Translations under genes and position numbers: made by a program
In this document: piece after piece, positions 1,137 to 52,838 of the stretch
Layout of the letters: every line of letters starts with the position of its first letter
Numbering within the stretch: position 1 is the stretch's first letter
Assembly: GCA_021234155.1 (NCBI GenBank)
Contig: JAJEKV010000008.1
Span: 7,654,445-7,718,444, forward strand
Source: Isoetes taiwanensis
Taxonomy: Eukaryota > Streptophyta > Lycopodiopsida > Isoetales > Isoetaceae
DNA: 64,000 nt
Direction: 5' to 3'
The notes under the pieces: generated by a model
Database searches by the model: none
What the model saw: only the letters and a program-made list of their open reading frames with translations
What the model was told of the DNA's origin: nothing

Positions 1137-1499
1137 ATGACATCCCACTTCGAGTTGCCGGCATTAAATGACATTCCTTCTTTTCACGCCCGTCGACCAT
1201 TAATGTGCGTCCTTTCGCCACCTGTCACATCAGATCATTCCCTTACGTCTCATCGCCACCGTTCACTGCTTCTCCCTTTACCGTTTGGGGACTTAGCCAA
1301 AATTTTGCCTCTCAATTGCCTCTTTCGCATCTATCGCCACCTAGCATCATCAACGGTTGCTGGTTCACCCTCATCATGCCCCTACGCCAACACTTTGTGC
1401 ACCCTAAAACCTTTTCGCCTCTCTGCGCTTTCATCTTCCGCTCTCCGCTCTCTGCCTTCGCATCTCTGTTCTTCCTGTTCCTTTCCGACGATCTTCGTC

Positions 1500-3934
1500 A
1501 TGGCTGCACCCAGATTACCTACACTTCAAGCTACTGCTCCAAGGGATCCGGCTCTTTTCGAGTCTGTGTATTTCTTGACGCCCACCTTTCGTGATGCCCT
1601 CGTTGGCCCGAGTCGTGAAGTTGCGGAACGCCAAAAGCTTTATGAATTCTCACAGATGGACCTCCCTGCCCCAAATCCAGAGCAAGTGAAGCAGTTCATC
1701 GCTCACATCATCAACAGCCCGAACGGCTATGCTACTGTGGTCGATGGCACCACCATTTTGCTTACCCAGCCCCTGATTTCTGAGGTATTCCGTATTCCTT
1801 TGCAAACACCTTGTTTATCTTGGGCTGCCTTACAGGATATAGATGTCACTGAGTTCGGCGCTCCCTCTTATCAAGCCAACATGCATCGCCTCACCAATAT
1901 TGCCAAAAGCCATGACACTTTTGTCAAATTTCTATGGCGCAAATTGCTTGGGTATTCTATCAAGAACACCCATATCAATAAGCCGTTCTATAATATGGTC
2001 ATCACAGCCATCCGCTCAAACCACCACATTGATTGGCCCCAGCTGTTGTTCTATCGCCTTCTTCAAGAAGTAGACCGCATTCGGGCTACCCCCTCCTCTG
2101 TCCTTGAAGTTTCAGTGGGTGGCCATCTTCAAGCCCTCATCTGTCATTATCTTCCTGTTCCTGTCTCCGTTTCAAATTCTCATGCATCCACTCAGCACTC
2201 CCTACATTCACTTCCTCAAAATCAACAGGCTAGAACTTCACGCCCTTCTTCTTCTGGTCATGTCCAACATAACACCACGCATGTCACTGTCTCCTCCTCC
2301 TCCACCGAAACGCGGCCCTCAAGTTCTCATCATGCCTCTCAAACGTCACAAACACGGCAACAGCAGACCCCTCCACCTCCACCTCCTCGCCAGCTTCTAT
2401 ATCAATACCAGTAGGATGTTCAAGCTGCTGCTCTCAAGTTGCAAGAATCCCAGGACGCTCTCATGAATGGGGTTCAAGCGTCCCTGGAGGCCTCGGAAGC
2501 GGTTCAGCGAGACCTTCACGCTGCTACCACGCAAGTTCACACTCTGGAAACCCAGCTTCAAGCAAAGCACGAGGCTCTTTTACAGGCCCGTGAGGATCTA
2601 AAGGCTGCCCACGATCAGCATAGTCTGCTTGCTGATCAACAGGCTCAATTGCAAACCACCATTCAGGAATTGTTGGAGCAGGTCAAGGTAAGGGAGACTC
2701 TTTTGGTTGACAAGGATAAAGACATTGCAAAGCTGGACACGCTGTATACAGAGCTTTCTCGGAATTACACCACTCAAGCCCAAGACCTTACAGCGCGTGA
2801 CGCTCAAATAGCCTCTTTAGCAGCTCAGCTTTCCACGCTGACCTCTAGGCTCACGCCTCTCCAAGATCAGCTCACGGAGGCTCAGAAACAGAAAATCATT
2901 GATGACGCCGAGATTGCCACGCTTCGACTCAATATTCCTGGGCAATCCTCTTCACATGCCACGCCTTCTCAGAAACGGGTCCGTGATCAGCACGCCTTCT
3001 GTTAGATCCCGATCTTGTCCGTGCATTCCGGGAGTAGGCTCAGCAGCCCACGCCCACGAGCCTGGCTCCCTCTCCATATGCTTCACTGGGTGTCCCTCCA
3101 CGCCCCCGGTTCCTCACCTCTGATTGGCGTCTCCCCTTTTGGACGAAGGTCATGGATGGCCACGCTGGGTCGACTCCCCCTCAGATCTCGACGGATCTCC
3201 GGTGGGATCCCCGATTTGTCAGACGCTCCAATTGGGAGGATAATACCACCTTGGAAGCTACTGAGACTTGGATATATATTGCTAATGAGTGTGGTTGGCA
3301 ACGACCTGCTGATGCTATTCATGGTCTTGATACCTTCTTGCAGAATGCCGCCACCTCACCGGACCCTTCAGTTCACCGTCAAGCTGGTTTCTGTGCTGCT
3401 CTCAGATGCATCCTGGTAAGCTCTTTAAATCGGCAGCGTCCAATCTTTTACTGCAACCCGAATGCCAGTGTCAGTGCCTTCGGTCTCCAGACCTGCCTTC
3501 TCATGGAGTGCCAGTTCGTTCCTTCTGATGCACATGCTGCCCTGGAAGACATGGTGCGCTCTCACTTCCTCATTGATGCAGATCCTGCCCTTGGGCTCAA
3601 CACTCCTGATGCTCTTCAAACACGTCAGGACCTCATTGCCCATTGCCATAATGGCGCCCGTCCTCATTCCCGTGAGGATCACTTTCAGACTGCTGGTTTC
3701 CCGCCCTCGGAAGCACTTCCTCCTTTTCTTCAGACTGAGTGTCGTTTGATGGGGGGGAGTGTTAGTCCTGTGCCTCCTGGTACAGGACTATTCATGCATA
3801 CGACGGACCAGGTCAAGGCCAAGGATCCACAACCAGGCGCGGGTCAGTCGTCAAAGGCCCAGCAGAAGACCAAGCAGACCATGCAGACAAAGACCACGCC
3901 TGGCGTCAACAAGAGGCGGCGCTCAGACAAGTGA
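1500..3934 (+). pseudogene. Decayed sense accessory ORF in env position of the gypsy element
   Basis: This is a long ORF between integrase and the 3' LTR, broken by an in-frame TAG (2412-2414), a frame change near 3000 and a second TAG (3035-3037). The best start is the ATG at 1500; the frame is open back to 1137, but that part is low-complexity Ser/Pro/Leu. Residues 1-230 form a globular region (residues such as YATVVDGTTILLTQPLISEV) that resembles the putative plant transposon protein domain found in extra ORFs of Tat-type elements. A Ser/Thr/Pro-rich linker follows, then a heptad-rich coiled coil (2439-2990), then a second globular block (3150-3740). The basic tail runs into the 3' LTR and stops at 3934. 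No signal peptide or membrane span is visible, so an envelope protein is unlikely. Function is unknown. Confidence 0.6.
3751..3759 (+). other. Polypurine tract of the gypsy element
   Basis: A G7-A-G run lies immediately before TGTTAG. This is the standard plus-strand priming site directly upstream of a 3' LTR. Confidence 0.8.
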
Positions 3935-41657: not shown

Positions 41658-44600
41658 TTTTTTTTTTGAAGGTAGGAGTATATTTTTATTGTAGATAGAA
41701 AATTTACGAAGAGCCCCCTCAATAGGACAGATAGAAAAGTTGTATGTTGCTTGCCCATCAGACCTGATGTGAATGTACTGCTGGAATACCTGCTCTTCTT
41801 CCCTGCATGTGAGAACTATAAGGAAATATCACCATATTCTCTGCAGAGGCAGGTACTATAGGGTGGGCAAATCTATTTTCCACACACCAAAGGGTTTCAG
41901 GGCGTATGAGATACATAGTTACCAAGAGTGTGGATCCCATTGTCATATGTAGGGGCTGGATCTTCTTCATCCAACCATTGACATCTGAACTAGTTGTAGA
42001 ATCCTTCCAATTTACCTACTCTATCCAACTGTTTATTGTACGCCACACCCATCTTTCTATGGTGGGACAAGGCCATTAGAGCCACTTCCATGTTAAAGAG
42101 GTTCTTTAGTTTTGACACTGAAGTAGCCTGCTCCCCTAATGCCACATTACATCTGTGCTTCCATACCACCCAAAGTGCCACATTGGTCAAGGAGGCAGTA
42201 ATTATACACTTATCAGTTCTAATGAACAGCTCGGGCCAAACAAGATGGGCTAGCTCTATCCCTAAGATCGGGAAAACCCAGCATCAGAACTCGTAAATCT
42301 TAGGACAGAAGAGGAGATGCATGATTGACTCACCATCTGCCATTCATCCATAAATGTCGTAGATATTGAATTTCCTGTTCTTTCCATTTTCCAAGTATAG
42401 GGGGATGGACCAAGGCCAAAGGGAGACCTTCCCTATTTCAAACTTGTGTATTCCAAAAGATACTGATATTTCTAGCCTCATTAGGAATGTCAGCTGGGGA
42501 GCATACCGATAGTACCTTCATCCAAGCCTGGAGTACCCTTCTCATCACCGGGAAGGTACCTGGAGCTAGTTTAGAATCGTAGAAGAAGGCCCCTAGTTCA
42601 TCCCTAGGAAGTGATGGCTTATATTTGAGCTTACATTCATCGAGCCAGTGTTTAACGAATATCATGGCTGGGGAAGAGTCATTATGTAGTGCATGCCAAA
42701 CAAATTTGGTTGCAAGTGCCTGTGCTTGTATAAAAGGGTCCTTACATCCTAGCCCCCCCATCTCTCTTATCCCGGCATAGCTCTGACCATGCCACTTTTG
42801 CATTACCTCCCCAAATAAACTTTCTAATGATGACATGTATCTGATTGTATATACTTTTTTGAGCTACTATCACTGATGAGAAGTAGATATGCGAGCCAGC
42901 AAAGACAACATTGGCCACCATAACCTGCCAGAGACTGATAGTCCCTTGGTAGACCACAATCCCATTTTCTTCCTAAGTCTGTCTAAGATTGGGGATCACA
43001 TGCCCTTCATGCTATCCGAGAGAGATAGTGGAAGACCCAAGAGCTTAACAGTCTCCCCTGTTGCCATCACCGGGAAACCAAGTTCTTGATCAATATCCCC
43101 TTAAGAGCCCATAGAGTAGAACATTTGTTGGCATTGAGTTCAATGCCGTGCAACTAGGATAACATGGAAGGATTGGAAACTATTGTCATCAAACCTAAGG
43201 AACATGAAGGTGCCAACTGCATATTGCATAATTGTAAGCTTCCCACCTTGACCTGGAAGAGACAGTCCAGATGTTGCACCTTATTCTACTTTGAAGTTGA
43301 CCATTTTTGTAAGAAGACTAGCCATAATCACAAACAGATAAGGAGCTAATGGACATCCTTGCTTTATTCCGTTTCGGAGATGAAAAAGACCTGAAGGCTC
43401 ACCATTCACAAGCACCGAGGCAGAGGCAAGCTTGTTCATACCCATAGAGAGAGAGAGAGAGCAATGAATTCACTTTGGAATCCCATGTATTTCATGACCT
43501 CTTGCAAACCTTCCCATCTAAGGGAGTCATAGGCCTTCCGAAAATCCATCTTTATAAGAACACAGTTCTGCTTCGAAGTTCTGCACCAATGTAAACCTTC
43601 CCTTGCTACAATATAGTTGTCAAGAATGTACCTACTTGGAAGGAAGGCTTGTTGTTCTCTACCAATGACCCTATTGAGAATAGGCTTTACACAGTTGGCA
43701 ATGCCTTTCATGATAACCTTGTACATTACATTGGTCAAGGCAATGGGCCTCCGCTCACAAAGTGACAAAGGTCTTGGTATTTTTGGAATGAGAGTTATGA
43801 ACCCAGTAGCCAGGGTGGAGTGTAGAGTAGAGAAAGACCAGGTCCCTCACACTGCCTTCACAAAGTCAAGCCTTAAGAGGTCCCCAAAATTCTATATAAA
43901 ATTCACGAGGCAAGCCATCAGGACCAAGAGACTTACTTGAGGCCAAAGAGGACAAGATTTTATAGATCTCAACGTCTCCAAAATACTGCATCGGCGTCTG
44001 ATTATCTTCTTGTGCAACTTTGACCGACTAATCCACCTTGTTCATCCATTGGGAGATCCGGGCTTGAAATGTCACCGGCCTAGGATACTCGTGAATTGTT
44101 TCTGAAAGCTATTTCTTATAAATGTCTTGATCTCATCTTGATCATCCAACATATTCTGACTATTATCTATAATTGTTGAGATACTATTTTCTACTAGTCT
44201 TGTCCCTGCCATTCTAAAAAGCCACTTGGAGTTCTCAGAGTCAAGCTCCATATACCACTTTGTTTTGGAGCGTATATCCGCTCCCCTAGCTTTCTCCTCC
44301 TTAGTTGCTTTGGCTTTCCCTTCTAGTTCCTCTTCTCTGCATTATTTTTCCAAGTCATGTGGATGATCTAATAGTCCCTGCTTGACCTCCTGTAGAAGGT
44401 TGTAAACAGCTTCCTTTTCACGTCTAAATTCCATGAATCTCTTCTTACCCCACTCCTTTATCCATCGCTTCATAAGGTTAATTTTTTCTATCCAAACTTT
44501 CATACTAGGAAGGCCCTCAAGATTGGGAAGTGAGGCCAAGAAAGCCCTAAATGGTTTGCAAAATGCCTTCTTTCCTAACCATGATGTATTGAATTTGAAT

Positions 44601-44700
44601 GGAACATTACCTTGTTTCCTCATAATAGGGGCATCTTCAAGAACAAGCTTCTGTGGTACATGATCCGAGTGAGAGAAAGCGAGCTCGCCTTCCATATAAC
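41658..44700 (-). mobile_element. L1-type LINE, decayed, 5'-truncated in endonuclease
   Basis: Minus-strand fragments occur in the correct L1 order: end of the endonuclease (HSDHVPQKL, about 44680), linker, then RT: RRPIALTNVMYKVI and FLPSRYILDN (about 43650-43750), VLIKMDFRKAYDSL (motif A, about 43550), GIKQGCPLAPYLFVI (about 43350). The thumb and C-terminal region (LLGLPLSLSDSM, WGGNAKVAWSELC) runs to about 42000. A T10 run at 41658-41667 is the poly(A) tail. Multiple stops and frame shifts show an old inactive copy. It is a different family from LINE-A. Confidence 0.88.
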
Positions 44701-44946
44701 ATTTATCTATACAAGAAATTTATCGTCGCAGCCTTGGCCGCCGCGAACATTTCTTTTGTCCAACCCACTGCAAAAGATGTTTTGTGCTAAGTTGGATAAA
44801 TCTTAGTCCTGGACATGCTTGAGATGCGAGAGAACATGCGAGAGTTGAACCTGCACTATTGCCGTCTATTTTGTGCCCATAAGATAGATAGGTGCTATAA
44901 CCAATCACCATAGGATTCTCATTATTGTCTCTGCCCTCTTTTTTTG

Positions 44947-45242
44947 GCATCCAATGACAGCCAGTGGGTTTTGGGCCTAGATGGGGATTGCCCATTACCG
45001 ACGGCTTGACCGCGGCTGTAACCGCGATGTATGTTTTTTTATTTTATTTTATGTTATTTTTGCATCGGATGACAGTCAGCGGGTTTTGGGCTTTGGATGG
45101 GGATCACCCATTACCAACAACTTGACCACTAGGTTGTTACCGCGATGGATGTTCTTTTCATTTATTTTCATTTTATGTTTTGCATCCAATGACAGTCAGT
45201 AGGTTTTGGGCTTTGAATGGGGATCGCCCATTACCAACATTT
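44947..45242 (+). repeat. Tandem repeat, about 115-120-bp unit, 2.5 copies
   Basis: Units start at GCATC(C/G)(A/G)ATGACAG, at 44947, 45062 and 45182, each with GTTTTGGGC and GATGGGGATYRCCCATTACC. The third copy is cut off where the Penelope-like element begins. Confidence 0.85.
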
Positions 45243-45647
45243 TAATGAGAGCAGCAAGAAGAAAGGGGAAGATGAAGGTGATCACAAGGGGGATGGCATT
45301 GCAAAAGACCCTGATTATAGCAGAAATTGTAACAGGGTTAATGAGCAGATTACTGGAGGACAAGAAGATCCTGGCAGAATGGTGGGATCTATGGATGCAA
45401 TTAGCAGAGAAGATGGATTGCTACAGCACACTGAACCAGATCTACAACTTGGCAACAAAACTATGGAGTACAAGCGAAATATCCAGGTTTTTAAGAGCAG
45501 TAGATTGAATTTTACTTAAGCATTTGCTTATTTTAAGTATTTTAAGTGATTTAAAGAAGTTGGGCTGATCCAAGAAGATAATACAGTTCAAAATCATAAT
45601 AAGCAGATCAGATTTATTATGGGTAAATTAGCATTAATTGCTATAAT
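45243..45647 (+). repeat. Left pseudo-LTR (405 bp)
   Basis: It is identical to the right repeat except for four substitutions and a 4-bp indel. It starts TAATGAGAGCAGC and ends TTAATTGCTATAAT. It carries the C-terminal part of ORF0, which is 5'-truncated on this side. Confidence 0.9.
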
Positions 45648-45724
45648 ATGATGAAGTTATCTTGACTATGTTTACTATAATTCCAGGTGATGAATGATCT
45701 AATGGTTTACTGAAATAATTGTAG

Positions 45725-47248
45725 GAAATTACAAAAGAAGAAGATGGTGTAGAGGACAGCAACATGCAGTGGATTAAAGAACTTATTGCATTGAACTATG
45801 ATAAGTGTGGCATTCTTTGCCCCAACTTTGCAGTTCAGACCATTCTGGGATGCGTGAAGAATAAGGAGATTCATTCATATATTACATTCATGGAGATAAA
45901 TACAAGCGACAAGAAGATGTCACCTGTTGCTTGGCTGGGTTTTGACGGATGGTTGAAGATGTACCAAGCTATAAAAAAGGTAAACTTTGAATATACTAAA
46001 TGTAGAGACCTTCTGGCCAGTTTGTATCAGAGTTTCAGCATTGTTCTATATGACAGAACATGCCTTGAAGATATTCAAGCTAAAAAATTTATGATAGGCC
46101 TTATAGCATTGGAAAAAGCAAATGGTATAAAACCTCTTACTTTTGATAATAAATACCAAGCCATTAACTGTGATAAGCAAGATGCACATGATTGCTTATT
46201 TTCTGAATTGGATTTGTTTGATGATGAAGTGCAACAAAAGGATGGTTCGAATATGCAAGGGGATAATAGCATTGAAGCAGAAGATGATGTCCCCAATCTT
46301 ACTTTGGCTAATTCTGCTTGCTTCCCATTAATCACAGAGCGGGCTGTAGAAGGTTATGCTGCTATGTATGAACATGCCATTTGGAAGAGTGGTAACTTTG
46401 GGGCTTTGGCTCCAATTGACACTGAAACATGGATAGCTTTGGCTGGTATCTCCAAAGAAGAAGTCAGTAATGCCAAACTGGCTGCTACTAAACTTGACAG
46501 AATGTTTAACATTTTGTATGTGGACTTGGATTTCAAAATGGACTTTTTTGATCAGACATGCATCAGAAGTGGAAAGATACAAGTTTGCCAAAAAGGCCAC
46601 ATGGCCTTTCCTAATATTGAGCGCAATGACTATTACCTCAAGCGAATCTGGAGGTCACACTGTCCATATTTCACTTGCACTTGTGAAAAGAACAAGAGTC
46701 TCAAAAACAAAGGTAACAAAAATGACGAGTGCAAGTGTGGAGTCATTTGGTTTGACCAAGGAGTGTGGTTTATATTAAACCAAATGGAAGCTATTTTACC
46801 ACAAGCTTCACCTATGATGAGAATGGTTACATTGACCGAATTGCTCAGTAACATGTTAAAACCAGCCGTTATTGCTTATATATCTTACTTAGAGGTAAGA
46901 AAGAATATGCTGGAAATGACTTTGAGCTTTGCAAACACCCCTGAGAAAAGTCTCAAACAGCAATATGGGGACAATAAAATGGCTGATATTGTGGAGAAAA
47001 TGATCAAACCAGTTTCATTCCTCAAGTTTCAGGGATCTGCCAAAAATCCAGTCTTTGTGGACAGAAGGTATAATGCCAACAAGACAACCAAAAATGAAAA
47101 GATGGTAACCCCTGTACTAGCACCAAGGATCACTAAAGATCCTAGGAAAACAGAGAATGCCACGGCTGAAAAGAAGAAAGAAGAGGTTACACCACTGACT
47201 GATGATTACCATGCTGAGATAAACATTGTGGAAGAATCACTGGAATAA
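45725..47248 (+). CDS. Penelope-like element ORF1, novel protein
   Basis: The frame is open from just after a TTGTAG acceptor (45724) to 47248, with an internal ATG at 45764; it encodes 494 aa from that ATG. It is mostly alpha/beta-like with no domain I recognise. Features include an acidic linker around residues 150-180, a Cys cluster at about 299-328 (CPYFTCTC followed by ECKC) that could bind zinc, and a Lys-rich C-terminus. The position between the LTR-like repeat and RT suggests a nucleic-acid-binding or N-terminal RT-extension role. Phase-0 GT sites near its end (AAGATG|GTAACC and GAAGAG|GTTACA) could splice it to the RT exon, making one long polyprotein. Function is not assigned. Confidence 0.6.
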   Translation, partial: EITKEEDGVEDSNMQWIKELIALNYDKCGILCPNFAVQTILGCVKNKEIHSYITFMEINTSDKKMSPVAWLGFDGWLKMYQAIKKVNFEYTKCRDLLASLYQSFSIVLYDRTCLEDIQAKKFMIGLIALEKANGIKPLTFDNKYQAINCDKQDAHDCLFSELDLFDDEVQQKDGSNMQGDNSIEAEDDVPNLTLANSACFPLITERAVEGYAAMYEHAIWKSGNFGALAPIDTETWIALAGISKEEVSNAKLAATKLDRMFNILYVDLDFKMDFFDQTCIRSGKIQVCQKGHMAFPNIERNDYYLKRIWRSHCPYFTCTCEKNKSLKNKGNKNDECKCGVIWFDQGVWFILNQMEAILPQASPMMRMVTLTELLSNMLKPAVIAYISYLEVRKNMLEMTLSFANTPEKSLKQQYGDNKMADIVEKMIKPVSFLKFQGSAKNPVFVDRRYNANKTTKNEKMVTPVLAPRITKDPRKTENATAEKKKEEVTPLTDDYHAEINIVEESLE

Positions 47249-47321
47249 ACTCACTCATATCAGAGTTATTCTTTTTTGATATACAAGAGAATTTTCCATT
47301 CTCTTGAAAATATAAAAGGGA

Positions 47322-47938
47322 TTTTTTTTTTTTTTTTGAAGAACGTGTTTTACTTCATATTATACACTCAAAAGATTACAAAGTACTTCAAGAAGTAAGA
47401 AATATCCCTGAAGCATCAATCACTTTTAGATGATCACTCCATATTGGAAATTTAATACGATCAGGCCAATTGGAGATCTGAAAGCAATTATACAACTTCT
47501 TACGAATTTCTTGAAGTACCACCTGAGAAGAAATATGCTTATCATAAAAGACCTTTCTTCGCCTTCGCTTCCATACACTCCATATTAGCCAAGACTTTGC
47601 CATGTGAAATGCAATCCTTTTAGAAGCAGACCACTGATTTGGATAAATACCCAAAAGAAAGTGCTGACTATCCAAAGATACTCCAAAAAGAGAATGCAAC
47701 CAGGACCTAAGACTACTCAGCTCTGCACACAAATATAAACAATGCTCCAATGTTTCAATGCACCGCTCACACATTGGGCAAAGTGGGCTTACTCCCGGCT
47801 TAAAGCGATGAACCATCTCATTAACTCTCAAAGAGCGATGAATCACCTGCCAAAGTAAAACATTTACCTTTGGAGGATTATATTTAGACCAAACAAGGTT
47901 CCAGATGGGATTTTTTTCCCATTGCCATTTGGCCTACA
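47322..47938 (-). mobile_element. Nested L1-type LINE 3' end
   Basis: The minus-strand frame encodes NPIWNLVWSKYNPPKVNVLLWQ, then HRSLRVNEMVHRF and CPMCERCIETLEHCLYLC. This is the zf-RVT zinc-binding domain at the C-terminus of plant L1-like ORF2. A T16 run at 47322-47337 is its poly(A) tail. The frame is still open for 150 codons or so, so the insertion is fairly young. It lies between ORF1 and RT of the Penelope-like element. Confidence 0.88.
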
Positions 47939-48022
47939 TATCGATATGAATAAAGATCTTGCTTCCTTTATCTTTAAAATAATGTTGCATTTACTGAAGT
48001 ACTAATTTAGTAAATATTGTAG

Positions 48023-50116
48023 GTACACAAGATCAAATCAAGAGAAATTATCAAAGACAAAAACCTAAGGAGACATCTGGTCTATACAGAAGAAAAAGAG
48101 GACACTAAAATTATCCATGCAATATTTTTTTCCAAAGCATTAGAAAAATTCAATATTAAGAGGATTTTTGAAGTTGTACTCAGTGAGATACTACATGAAA
48201 GGGGACTAGAACTTATTGAAAAAACAACATTCTCATGGAGATATATTGAGCAGATCAAGGACAAAGTCTATAAACCGTTTAAGGTATTTGCTGATGGAAC
48301 CAAGAATGGTTGTCCTTGCAGTAACCCAAACTTGGCCAAATTTATTGATCCGACCATAGGGCATGTTAGAACCATTGATCTGAATATCATAAACTCTGGA
48401 AAACTCAGGAAAGCTTTTTCTTATGGATTGAACCATATTCCTGACAGCAGCTTTAATGTACAAGAGTTCATGGAAGATTTCAATAAAGTATGCCAACAAT
48501 TCTTTACAGCTCATAAGTATGAGCTGCTAGACCTGACAGAAAGTGATATACAGAATATCTCGGACATACTAATTCGGTATGCTCATATGGAGATAGTTGA
48601 ATTCAAAAAGGATATATCGAGCAAGAGATATCTTTGGAATGATAAAGAGGTAAAAAGAAATATTGAGTGGCTCAATAATAATTTGTATGTGGCAGGACTA
48701 GATAAGACAGCCAACAATGTGGTGTTCATCTGCCAGAAACATATTTCACAGATGGCCAGAAATAGGCTGAATAGTAATGATTTCAGAAAATGTGACATCC
48801 CACCTGAAAAATGCATTGAGAAATGTTGTGGGGATATGGCACAATTTCCTAATCTGGGGATAACCAGTAAGCAAAAACTTCCATACCTAATGGCCACGTT
48901 TAAGGCCCACAAAGGAGAATATAGGTGGTTGACCAACGCATTTGACACAATCTATTCGGGCACTGCCAAAATCATCACAGGTATTCTCAACAACTTTATG
49001 GAAAAATGGCCTCTCATGTGTCATCGACATACAGCAAGATTTAGACTCTGGGCAAAAAAACCCATAAATGCCAGTTGGATGATTAACTCTATGTATGATG
49101 TAGTAGTAAATCTCCCATACAAAATACATAACGTATTTGCAGCAGATATTATGAAATGTTATGAGAATATTCCGATCTTTGGATCAGAAGGAATTATTGA
49201 AATCATGGACGAGATTACTGACCTGATTTGGGAATTTGTGATGGATGAGGAGCACCTATTGGACATGGTTATTAAAGAAAAACACAGTAAGATCATTGTG
49301 AAATGGACGAGGAACCATAAGGACAAAGAATGGGTTAGTTGGACACATGTTACAAGAGCTGAATTTAAACACATGAATCAATGGTTGCTGTCATTCTGTT
49401 ATGTACAAATGGGAAATGAAATATGGATACAGCAAAAAGGAATCCCCATGGGATTTGCTTGTAGCCCGGCATGGTGCAACCTGTATCTAGGTTGGTATGA
49501 ACTAAAGTTTATTCTAAACCTTGCATCAAAAGGAAGATACAATGACATTTATAGATTTCAGCATGTTGCGCGATACATTGATGACCTGAATATCATCAAT
49601 GGGGGAAATGTACTTGAATTTCTATCTCCTCAGGCCGAAATTTGTATCTATTTGGATTACCTAGGGATTAAAGATTAGACATCATACATTACTACTCAAG
49701 ATGAACCGAGCAAGAAAAAAGGGGTCAAATGTGACTTCCTGAACATATCCATTGAAGTGACAGACCAGGACAGAGGGTTATTCAAAATGGCTAGATTTGA
49801 CAAAAGGAAAAAACTACCTTTCAAAGTTAACCGATTCATTCGAGCAGATAGTTGTAGACCGTATAAGCAAGCATCTAAGGTAGTTATTTCACAGGTTATG
49901 CCTTATGTTTATGCTCATAGAGAAAGCAATAATGCTGCAGAAGATGTGGCTGAGCTCATAGAAGCTTTTTGTTTGAATGGGTTCAGGAAAAGAGATATTG
50001 TATGGAATGTGCTTAATGTACTACAAAATGAGAACTTCCCTGGGTTACTATATGATATTAAGGACATGGTCAGGACATTGAAAAGTCTGGTATATATGGC
50101 AGGGAATGAAGAATAA
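48023..50116 (+). pseudogene. Penelope-type reverse transcriptase with one in-frame TAG
   Basis: The frame is open from a TATTGTAG acceptor (48022) through 50116, except for TAG at 49676-49678 (codon 552); counted through, it spans 697 codons. RT motifs: N-terminal block LRKAFSYGLNHIP; LPYLMATFKAHK..YRWLTNAF (PLE fingers, like PKIHK..RPI); motif A NVFAADIMKCYENIP; motif B QQKGIPMGFACSPAWCNLYL; motif C ARYIDDLN with catalytic D520-D521. After the TAG, the thumb (CDFLNISIEVTDQDRG) and a C-terminal helical domain stay in frame, so the stop is a single recent lesion or a readthrough codon. No GIY-YIG domain follows. YIDD and the KGIPMG form set it apart from group II intron and LINE RTs. Confidence 0.82.
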
Positions 50117-50984
50117 CAACATAGGTGTAGGTGGGGCCTGTAGCAACAGGGCCCTACCAGCCTTGTTGTTACAAACTATAGTATGAAAATATGGTTGCAA
50201 AGTGCAGGAAAACCATGGTACACCCACCGAACCTACGGTAGGAGGTAGGCTTTTTTATTTATATGAAATGAATAAGAATATAGTACTAATTCAATGTAGC
50301 ATGTTGAACTTAGAAATTAGTTGTACCACTCTACATACCATATATGCAGTGCAGTGGTGGGCATTTACCAAAATATGAATAAAGGATGTATATGATGGTC
50401 CTATGAATTGGAAACAAAAATAGAAAGGTCCTGAGAACAATGTAAGTGGAACACTCAGAAAGAAGATACCTTGAGATGAACAAGTGTAGCTAGTTGCAAA
50501 AGAGTTATGGCTAACTTCAAGCCCTTGTTGTTGTGGCCCTTGGCATTAGGTTACATTGTTAGTATGTGTTTCCCATCTACCCAGTAGAAACTATGCTACA
50601 CTTGGAGCACCCTCCAAGAATGGTGCACAATAGTAGGGATAGATATGTGACTAGAAAACTAAAAGTATGGATATTGGGAGACCTTTGAAAATTATTTGAG
50701 GTCTAAAATATTAAGCAATGGTCGAGATGAACAGTAAAAGATTAGGGTTGCCGGATCCGGATGCACTGCTATGCCGGTTGGATTACGGTTACATCTGACA
50801 TCGGATTGACAGCTATACATACACATGGATTACTGGAAGAAGAGTGAAGCAAAGGTATGAACCTATCTAGGACTGTCGGTAGCAAGAACTAATTACATAA
50901 ATATAAACGAATGAGCTATTTTAGAATTACCCTGCGCATACTTGCATTTCTCCTGGTCGGATTGTCTGTGATCTTCAAGATCAC
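50117..50984 (+). other. Penelope-like element 3' region and ORF0 leader
   Basis: Non-coding sequence between the RT stop and ORF0. It probably holds the 3' UTR of one unit and the promoter and 5' UTR of the next, since ORF0 of the downstream partial unit begins at 50985. Confidence 0.5.
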
Positions 50985-51392
50985 ATGACGAGAAAGAAAG
51001 GAGACTTGAATTTGGCTACTAGGAAGAGAATTGCAGAGGAAAAAAGCCAGGCTACCAGCTGCAAAAAACTCTTTCAGTTTCACAAAACATCTGTGAAGGA
51101 TGCATTGAAAATTTGTAATGAGAGCAGCAAGAAGAAAGGGGAAGATGAAGGTGATCACAAGGGGGATGGCATTGCAAAAGACCCTGATTATAGCAGAAAT
51201 TGTAACAGGGTTAACGAGCAGATTACTGGAGGACAAGAAGATCCTGGCAGAATGGTGGGATCTATGGATGCAATTAGCAGAGAAGATGGATTGCTACAGC
51301 ATACTGAACCAGATCTACAACTTGGCAACAAAACTATGGAGTACAAGCGAAATATCCAGGTTTTTAAGAGTAGTAGATTGAATTTTACTTAA
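50985..51392 (+). CDS. Penelope-like element ORF0 (135 aa), complete copy
   Basis: An ATG at 50985 opens a hydrophilic, charged frame. Its N-terminus (MTRKKGDLNLATRKRIAEEK) is basic, the middle carries a Lys/Asp/Glu-rich stretch, and it ends FKSSRLNFT. The last 90 codons lie in the right pseudo-LTR and are repeated in the left one. All three substitutions between the copies inside this frame are synonymous here but change amino acids in the overlapping +1 frame, which favours this frame being real. A phase-0 donor after NIQ (CAG|GTTTTT) could fuse it to ORF1. The family is unrecognised. Confidence 0.55.
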   Translation: MTRKKGDLNLATRKRIAEEKSQATSCKKLFQFHKTSVKDALKICNESSKKKGEDEGDHKGDGIAKDPDYSRNCNRVNEQITGGQEDPGRMVGSMDAISREDGLLQHTEPDLQLGNKTMEYKRNIQVFKSSRLNFT

Positions 51393-51524
51393 GCATTTGC
51401 TTATTTTAAGTATTTTAAGTGATTTAAAGAAGTTGGGCTGATCCAAGAAGATAATACAGTTCAAAATCGTAATAAGTAAGCAGATCAGATTTATTATGGG
51501 TAAATTAGCATTAATTGCTATAAT
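51116..51524 (+). repeat. Right pseudo-LTR (409 bp)
   Basis: This is a copy of 45243-45647 with a 4-bp TAAG insertion near 51475. Unlike the left copy, its upstream sequence continues as ORF0, so it is the start of a second, 3'-truncated element unit. Confidence 0.9.
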
Positions 51525-52838
51525 GAACCATCATAGCTTGCCATTATGGTAGATAGGTGCTAGTCTAAAAGGAAAAAAGAATCCAGACTTAACTCCAGGC
51601 ATTATTATGATGAAGAATATCGATCTGTGGCTAGCTAAATTGATAAGGGCTATAACAGGTTGCAGGGCTTTGTTTGTTTTTTGCTAGGTTCAAATCTAAT
51701 CACATATTTGGTTATTCTATGTGTTGCAACCAATGAGTAACATGGGGTTGCAGGTTATAGCTGTGTTTTGCAATTATTTGGATCTTACACAGCCTTAGAT
51801 TGTAGATGTATGCAAAAGCATATGTAAATTCAATCTGATTTTCTGTTTTCTGACCATATATGGCAGTTTTGCTTCCATTTTCCATTTGTCTCAGGAAAAT
51901 CAGTTTGAGTAGACTAATTTACCTTAATCTTGTTTGTTAGATTACAAGCAGGGTGAGGGGTGATAAGCTTAAAAGATCTTATGACACCTGCCATCTAATG
52001 CTTGTTTTTGTTCTTGTGGTGCAGGTAACAGGATCTTTTACTCCCTGCTATGTTCTCGTTTAGAATTGGAAGCTTGATCTTGAACATGGAATGATAGTGA
52101 TTTATTGATGAAGACAGCAACAAGACACGTAGCCTTGATATGGCTCACTTCTATTGTTTTATTTTTGCTACTTAATAACAAAGGTTTAGAACATAGAGCA
52201 TGTAATGACACTTCATGAATAAATTATGCTGATTTTTAGAAAAACAGTATTGGCAAATGCATTGTGTTGATTGCATTAGCATTTAATGATTATTTAAAGA
52301 TAGAATGGTTTATATGGGTCTTGATTACTGCTTGTCTGCATTTGCTTGACCATAAAATAGCCATGAGGCTGATCTTATTAATATTGTGTGTATTTGATAG
52401 TATATGAGATTAATGAGGATAGGCATCGAAAATATGTTATAAATCAAAGTAGTATCATAATGGGGACATAGTCTTGACCTAAAAATTGGACACCTGACTT
52501 TTTTTAGGGCTGCATATTGTACCAAATTAGTTCCTTGAAAAGGTCTAAAGAGGTAAAAAGTCTGGATAACAGATTTAAAAGTTTTTTTTTTTTTTTTGGT
52601 GGCGTACCTTATCTGAATAACATCTGAATGCTGGCATAAGACATCTCATTGAGCAAAAGTGTAGCCCGTACGAAGGATATGAAAGATGGAGCGGATGTAC
52701 CTTATTAACTTCTTCTGTGTTGTATAAACAAAGTGCGGTCCGTACGAAGACAGAGAGAACGTACCTTATTGATTTCTTCTTTGTTGTATAAACAATTGAG
52801 TGACGTGAATGAAGGAGGGCTAAGAAAAATGTATCGTA
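51525..52838. other. Intergenic; 67-bp tandem duplication at about 52663-52800
   Basis: No gene seen. The duplication carries CCGTACGAAG...GTACCTTATT and TTGTATAAACAA. A T17 run lies near 52571-52588. Confidence 0.45.

Follow-up and report, generated by a model that had tools for sequence, protein, structure and literature searches.

A probable decayed Penelope-like retroelement without a recognised endonuclease in Isoetes taiwanensis

We analysed a stretch of 64,000 nucleotides (nt) of the Isoetes taiwanensis genome (hereafter the window, to which all positions refer), in which a probable retroelement occupies positions 45240 to 51524 of the plus strand. The locus consists of a unit of 5877 bp (45648-51524), counted from the base after the left of two direct repeats to the right end that the repeats have in common, preceded by the left repeat itself. 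The unit carries, in this order and on the plus strand, a long open reading frame (ORF) for an unrecognised protein, a frame for a divergent reverse transcriptase (RT) and, close to its 3′ end, a short frame that we read as the first exon of the same gene. The whole is probably a decayed insertion of a Penelope-like element (PLE) that either lacks an endonuclease or has one that is not recognised. This reading draws on the repeats and their order, on predicted joins that are all in phase 0, on the late position of the first ATG of the RT frame, on synonymous changes between the repeats and on a match to the RVT_1 profile below its cut-off. Among retroelements, PLEs stand closest to telomerase, and reports of them in plants are patchy.

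We call the two direct repeats pseudo-long terminal repeats (pLTRs). The left pLTR (45240-45647, plus strand) has 408 nt and copies the terminal 412 nt of the unit, comprising the end of exon 1 and the start of intron 1; the right pLTR (51113-51524, plus strand) forms the 3′ end of the insertion, which falls within intron 1. In a global alignment they differ by 5 substitutions and one 4-nt insertion, with matching blocks of 300 nt at 99% and of 48 nt at 100% identity. The left repeat starts midway through exon 1, hence both the promoter region and the start codon are absent from it, and the two repeats share their last base, after which the sequences diverge (ATGATG... on the left, GAACCA... 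on the right). Since the left repeat starts inside an open frame and ends at the same base as the right one, it is a 5′-truncated piece of the unit end, i.e. a truncated extra copy of the unit tail in tandem arrangement. An earlier note on this DNA had described near-identical direct repeats bounding the element; we found the same right edge (51524), and a left edge at 45240 instead of 45243. Three of the 5 substitutions lie in the exon-1 part, two being synonymous (51215 and 51302) and one nonsynonymous (51115, only 3 nt from the repeat edge), and the other two lie in intron 1 together with the 4-nt indel. With numbers this tiny, the pattern would be a weak hint of coding.

The left junction (45239/45240) interrupts the third copy of a tandem repeat of 115-120 bp, which does not continue in the right flank. 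Precisely, at 44943-45239 a 62-nt direct repeat occurs three times, with spacings of 115 and 120 nt, and the third occurrence is cut by the junction. Both flanks also contain one copy of the 13-mer TAGATAGGTGCTA (at 44885-44897 and at 51550-51562), and its inner 11-mer GATAGGTGCTA is found at just these two places in the window, considering both strands; the pair is possibly due either to chance or to a related target sequence.

The RT exon (48023-50116, plus strand) comprises 697 codons, including an internal TAG, followed by a stop codon (50114-50116). Its part before the internal in-frame TAG (49676-49678) is an open frame of 551 codons (48023-49675), the longest stop-to-stop frame on either strand of the window, and after the TAG the frame continues for 145 codons. 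All the RT motifs named in the earlier note were located here, with finger and palm motifs in the order FKAHK (48899), DIMKCYENIP (49145), GIPMG (49439), CSPAWCNLYL (49460) and RYIDDL (49571), which we take to be the order typical of PLEs. They are followed by a C-terminal region with NGF at 49976, presumably thumb-like if PLE thumbs are the right comparison. The RT matched RVT_1 with 21.9 bits (E value 1.6e-4; 21.7 bits for the shorter ORF), under the Pfam cut-off of 29.6. Upstream of the fingers, residues 97-99 of the exon form a CPC motif (48311), followed by GHV (48359), LNII and LR, a stretch that we assume to be typical of the permuted Chlamys/Naiad clade of PLEs. The first ATG of the frame is at 48470, downstream of CPC and GHV; since it lies past these N-terminal motifs, the RT frame probably needs either a splice or another upstream start, and we consider it as probably dependent on the upstream exons.

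No GIY-YIG endonuclease was found by Pfam scans up to an E value of 10 in any of the four proteins scanned (the RT before and after its internal stop, the upstream frame of 507 codons and exon 1) or in 6 ORF pieces. A loose GIY..YIG pattern, run on the six frames of 45240-51524, matched once, at 50470 on the minus strand, a place outside all the predicted exons. Likewise, no C-terminal GIY-YIG domain was found after the thumb-like region, where the RT frame stops at 50116. The earlier claim that no such nuclease is visible is upheld, within the limits of the Pfam scans. The same scans of the element proteins gave no integrase, RNase H or protease.

The upstream frame (45725-47245) has 507 codons and is the second-longest stop-to-stop frame in the window. 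It gave no match in NCBIfam or PHROG, and nothing better than an E value of 9.7 in Pfam. Its first 390 codons are the predicted exon 2 (45725-46894, plus strand), for an unrecognised protein with CxC pairs (CTC and CKC); at the local stop frequency of 0.058 the probability of 390 open codons by chance is about 8e-11. The frame then runs on in an open extension of 117 codons and a TAA (46895-47248, plus strand), which would provide the C-terminus if intron 2 were retained and in which the codon-position bias (T 0.09 at the first position, G 0.08 at the second) goes in the same direction as in the other exons. The predicted exon 1 (50985-51359, plus strand) consists of 125 codons with a basic N-terminus, is whole at the right end only and has no Pfam match. 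Single-sequence AlphaFold models were unusable both for the upstream frame and for the RT, with a mean predicted local distance difference test score of 35.8 and 33.9, respectively.

These frames can be joined by two predicted introns, both on the plus strand and in phase 0. Intron 1 (238 nt, 45487-45724) would have the donor CAG/GTTTTT and the acceptor TTGTAG/GAA, its donor lying at 51359/51360 and, in the left copy, at 45486/45487; the unit boundary (45647/45648) falls within it. Intron 2 (1128 nt, 46895-48022) would have the donor GAG/GTAAGA (46894/46895) and the acceptor ATTGTAG/GTA. Exon 1 and exon 2 each have a length divisible by three, and both long frames (from 45725 and from 48023) open immediately after a TTGTAG whose TAG is an in-frame stop. 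We consider a single gene likely, made up of an exon 1 of 125 codons within the pLTR, an exon 2 of 390 codons and an exon 3 of 697 codons that include the TAG, although the joins are predicted from sequence. Since the 117-codon extension has an exon-like codon bias, we think that both products, with intron 2 either kept or removed, may be in use. The earlier note had counted three ORFs, two of them for added proteins; a better reading takes the frames 50985-51392 and 45764-47248 for exons 1 and 2 of one gene. An independent third ORF at the 3′ end was rejected in favour of an exon 1 whose order is permuted by the tandem layout. Loci of this kind are easily misread, since exon 1 of an element with tandem pLTRs can sit at the 3′ end, where its ORF is readily mistaken for an extra gene.

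Candidate signals lie between the RT stop and exon 1. A possible polyadenylation signal, AATAAA (50378-50383, plus strand), is 262 nt past the RT stop and is the only AATAAA from there to 51524, and a TATAAA (50902-50907, plus strand), a possible promoter element, is 83 nt ahead of the exon-1 ATG. The last 100 nt of the unit gave a folding z-score of -2.39, with 2 of 200 shuffled sequences as stable, and the 165 nt from the intron 1 donor one of -0.97, with 39 of 200 as stable; a structured 3′ end of the unit is only suggested by these values.

Two long direct repeats flanking a coding sequence are also what would be expected from an LTR retrotransposon, or from another LTR-like element with an unusual RT. 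Against this, the left repeat is truncated in the middle of exon 1, the repeats neither start with TG nor finish with CA, no target-site duplication (TSD) was seen, the Pfam scans lacked the three enzymes listed above, and a predicted intron crosses the boundary between repeat and body. We rejected this candidate on its ends and its truncated left repeat, and regard the explanation as extremely improbable.

The PLE reading is consistent with what is published on the structure of these elements. In the available text of PMC8969392, full PLE insertions are in tandem with a second copy, usually 5′-truncated, which forms the pLTR, and the left repeat found here is such a tandem 5′-truncated copy. 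Spliceosomal introns are present in pLTRs according to the accessible part of PMC11722881, and the ORF may start inside the pLTR according to that of PMC3846280, where intron retention is also discussed. The Penelope-like identity put forward in the earlier note is therefore backed by the tandem pLTR with its truncated copy, by the predicted exon 1 and intron in the pLTR and by the motif order.

Several results weigh against this interpretation. One of the three exon-1 differences between the repeats is nonsynonymous, no TSD was found (the longest common word near the junctions has 6 nt and is away from the junctions themselves) and no second copy of the unit was found within the window. The donor of intron 1 is poor, agreeing with the consensus at 6 of 9 positions, and the score of the intron 2 donor (7 of 9) is equalled by four further GT sites in 45725-50116. 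Many PLEs, though not all, carry a hammerhead ribozyme in the pLTR. No hammerhead ribozyme with a stem was found here on either strand: the core words CTGANGA..GAAA occur at one place, on the minus strand at 49633 within the RT exon, and at none if stem II is required. The only Rfam match in 44500-52500 at E values up to 5 was RMST_1 (E value 3.9), and at the gathering score there was none in the window. No TTTAGGG telomere array was found in the window either, a search for two such units with up to 2 mismatches giving 2 matches with 2 mismatches, as many as are reached by 13 of 100 shuffles. The RT also gave weak profile matches to a group II RT (E value 0.0026) and to a CRISPR-associated RT (E value 3.7e-5). 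Finally, single-sequence hhalign comparisons gave a probability of 1.6 for Tribolium telomerase and of 0.1 for the fragment of a long interspersed nuclear element (LINE) in the window (110 aa), and 87.8 and 86.4 for two bacterial RTs. These two were aligned only at and just after motif B (27 and 45 columns) and had been chosen by the element's own motif B pattern, so that the comparison is biased, and it was made without a scored shuffled control. Together with the weak profile matches, it speaks neither for nor against a place of the RT in the PLE clade.

Searches for relatives were negative or confined to motifs. For the RT, 6 pattern-matching stretches in viral contigs and 14 in genome contigs included no relatives, and for the upstream protein there were no pattern-matching stretches in viral contigs. 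Three degenerate motif patterns gave no match in viral contigs, and in genome contigs a degenerate pattern gave 5, of which 3 were chance-like and 2 (L001 and L003) were in an RT frame with RYADD. L001 and L003, RTs from bacterial metagenome-assembled genomes, have GVPMGAVLSPLWCNIYL in common with motif B of the element RT; this resemblance is probably a motif-level match picked by the search pattern. Searches with tblastn against phages gave no matches. The RT core matched 31 plasmid records at E values up to 10; among the 10 listed all had E values of at least 2, and 5 were annotated as group II RTs. In PDB sequence searches the 551-aa frame gave one match (E value 0.47) and the core gave three, the best (E value 0.35) being a defence RT.

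This copy is dead, in view of its truncated left repeat, of the stop at 49676-49678 in the RT and of a LINE insertion. Since the left repeat has neither promoter nor exon 1 start, and given the RT stop and the LINE, the full protein cannot be made by this copy. The LINE is an antisense 3′ fragment in intron 2 (47318-47917, minus strand), with a zf-RVT ORF (47388-47846), a poly-T end and an 11-bp TSD, GGGATTTTTTT, whose copies are at 47318 and 47907. The zf-RVT match (E value 0.0013) is below the cut-off; this domain is common in plant LINEs, and its presence would agree with a plant host. The insertion adds about 589 bp, hence the unit was formerly of about 5.29 kb.

The decay bears on another explanation, according to which the locus is not mobile and holds an RT gene that was domesticated, or a tandem duplication that arose by chance beside one. 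The single copy within the window and an RT unlike the common mobile RTs would agree with it; against it, the frame is broken by an internal TAG and the repeats have the structure of pLTRs, as suits a dead insertion, and the tandem repeat cut at the left junction is not resumed in the right flank. We consider it quite improbable.

If the locus is a PLE, its candidate relatives include groups that lack an endonuclease (EN) or have one in another position. In the accessible part of PMC6431247, PLEs have either one ORF with RT and EN or two ORFs without EN, and are typically of 4-6 kb, and a table in PMC9033089 includes EN(-) PLEs from Selaginella moellendorffii, Pinus taeda and Picea abies; those of Selaginella also appear in the portion seen of PMC12477314. 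The suggestion in the earlier note that elements with this layout are not known is not supported, since two-ORF PLEs without EN and plant EN(-) PLEs are in these texts. Given published tandem pLTRs, pLTR introns and two-ORF PLEs without EN, neither the layout nor the missing GIY-YIG is new. A survey of the literature, partial and lacking several key papers, contained no description of this element, and says little about what is in print.

The element may be an EN-deficient PLE of the Athena/Coprina type, using free 3′ ends such as chromosome ends, a refinement of the PLE reading to which we give nearly an even chance. It resembles EN(-) PLEs (Athena and Coprina, and those of Selaginella and conifers, as far as the texts above describe them) in an RT without GIY-YIG, a size of about 5-6 kb, two products and tandem 5′-truncated copies. 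The two-product layout of 4-6 kb without EN fits PMC6431247, in the part available, and the element has the corresponding RT without endonuclease and second ORF; the listed lycophyte and conifer elements also favour this placement. In contrast to these elements, neither a TTTAGGG telomere array nor a hammerhead was found here, and the telomere association typical of EN(-) PLEs was not found within the window. Judging from a LINE RT fragment some 1.5 kb upstream, the insertion site looks internal, as far as the 64 kb seen. We rejected a telomeric insertion, given that no TTTAGGG array was found in the window.

The element could instead be a relative of the permuted Chlamys/Naiad clade, whose members have an N-terminal GIY-YIG linked to the RT by a CxC domain; its own endonuclease would then have been lost or replaced, or be too divergent for Pfam to recognise. 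This too is compatible with the PLE reading and refines it; we hold it as a tentative possibility, leaning against it. In its favour is a possible resemblance of the CPC of the RT exon and the GHV...LNII...LR that follows, since a CxC motif N-terminal to the RT and no canonical hammerhead are, as we take them, features of the clade; in contrast to the clade, no GIY-YIG is recognised in any of the exons, although CPC is present. Craig et al. (2021) are reported to have described Chlamys elements from green algae and from spike mosses. Chlamys is also reported in Ectocarpus (PMC12477816, in the part available).

With canonical Penelope/Poseidon elements, including Dryad of conifers, the element shares, as far as the texts consulted go, the tandem pLTR, the predicted ORF start and predicted intron in the pLTR and a likely internal initiation. 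Unlike them, it has no recognised C-terminal GIY-YIG or hammerhead, and its predicted exons 1 and 2 would add an N-terminal protein of about 515 aa.

The cycle of this PLE may have been like that of published PLEs. Where intact units stand in tandem, transcription would start ahead of exon 1, from a promoter within one unit's tail; it would then pass the unit boundary inside intron 1, whose splicing would connect the first two exons. With intron 2 retained, the product would be an RT-less protein of about 632 aa, and with intron 2 spliced out it would be a fusion of about 1212 aa that includes the RT. This enzyme would copy unspliced, intron-keeping RNA, starting within the pLTR/intron-1 region, then pass the unit end and halt early in the next copy, leaving a truncated tail and a full unit. 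If intron 1 is real, the fact that both repeats keep its sequence at the unit boundary implies that the template was RNA in unspliced (or antisense) form. For one PLE, initiation at an internal RNA site is described and multi-copy transcripts are proposed in the available text of PMC11167929. A stronger version, in which an intron-rich plant PLE lineage has replaced GIY-YIG by a new cysteine-containing N-terminal protein and makes two products by intron retention or splicing, in a manner similar to gag and gag-pol, seems to us unlikely.

The element is very probably a further PLE of known layout. Its unrecognised N-terminal protein and the possible splicing into two products are the interesting remainder. 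A poorly sampled member is added to a rare group, and a unit with a legible exon order and no known nuclease helps in asking how PLEs without endonuclease enter DNA.

Other features were noted in the window. The LINE RT fragment upstream of the element (43436-43768, minus strand) matched RVT_1 with an E value of 8e-12, and the ORF beside it (44342-44695, minus strand) had no Pfam match up to an E value of 0.1. At 1137-3934 there are three long ORFs (425, 188 and 260 aa), two of which were scanned and had no Pfam match up to the same value. An ORF at 3-569 has a weak SH3_Tf2-1 match (E value 0.0029, below the cut-off), which we read as Ty3-like.

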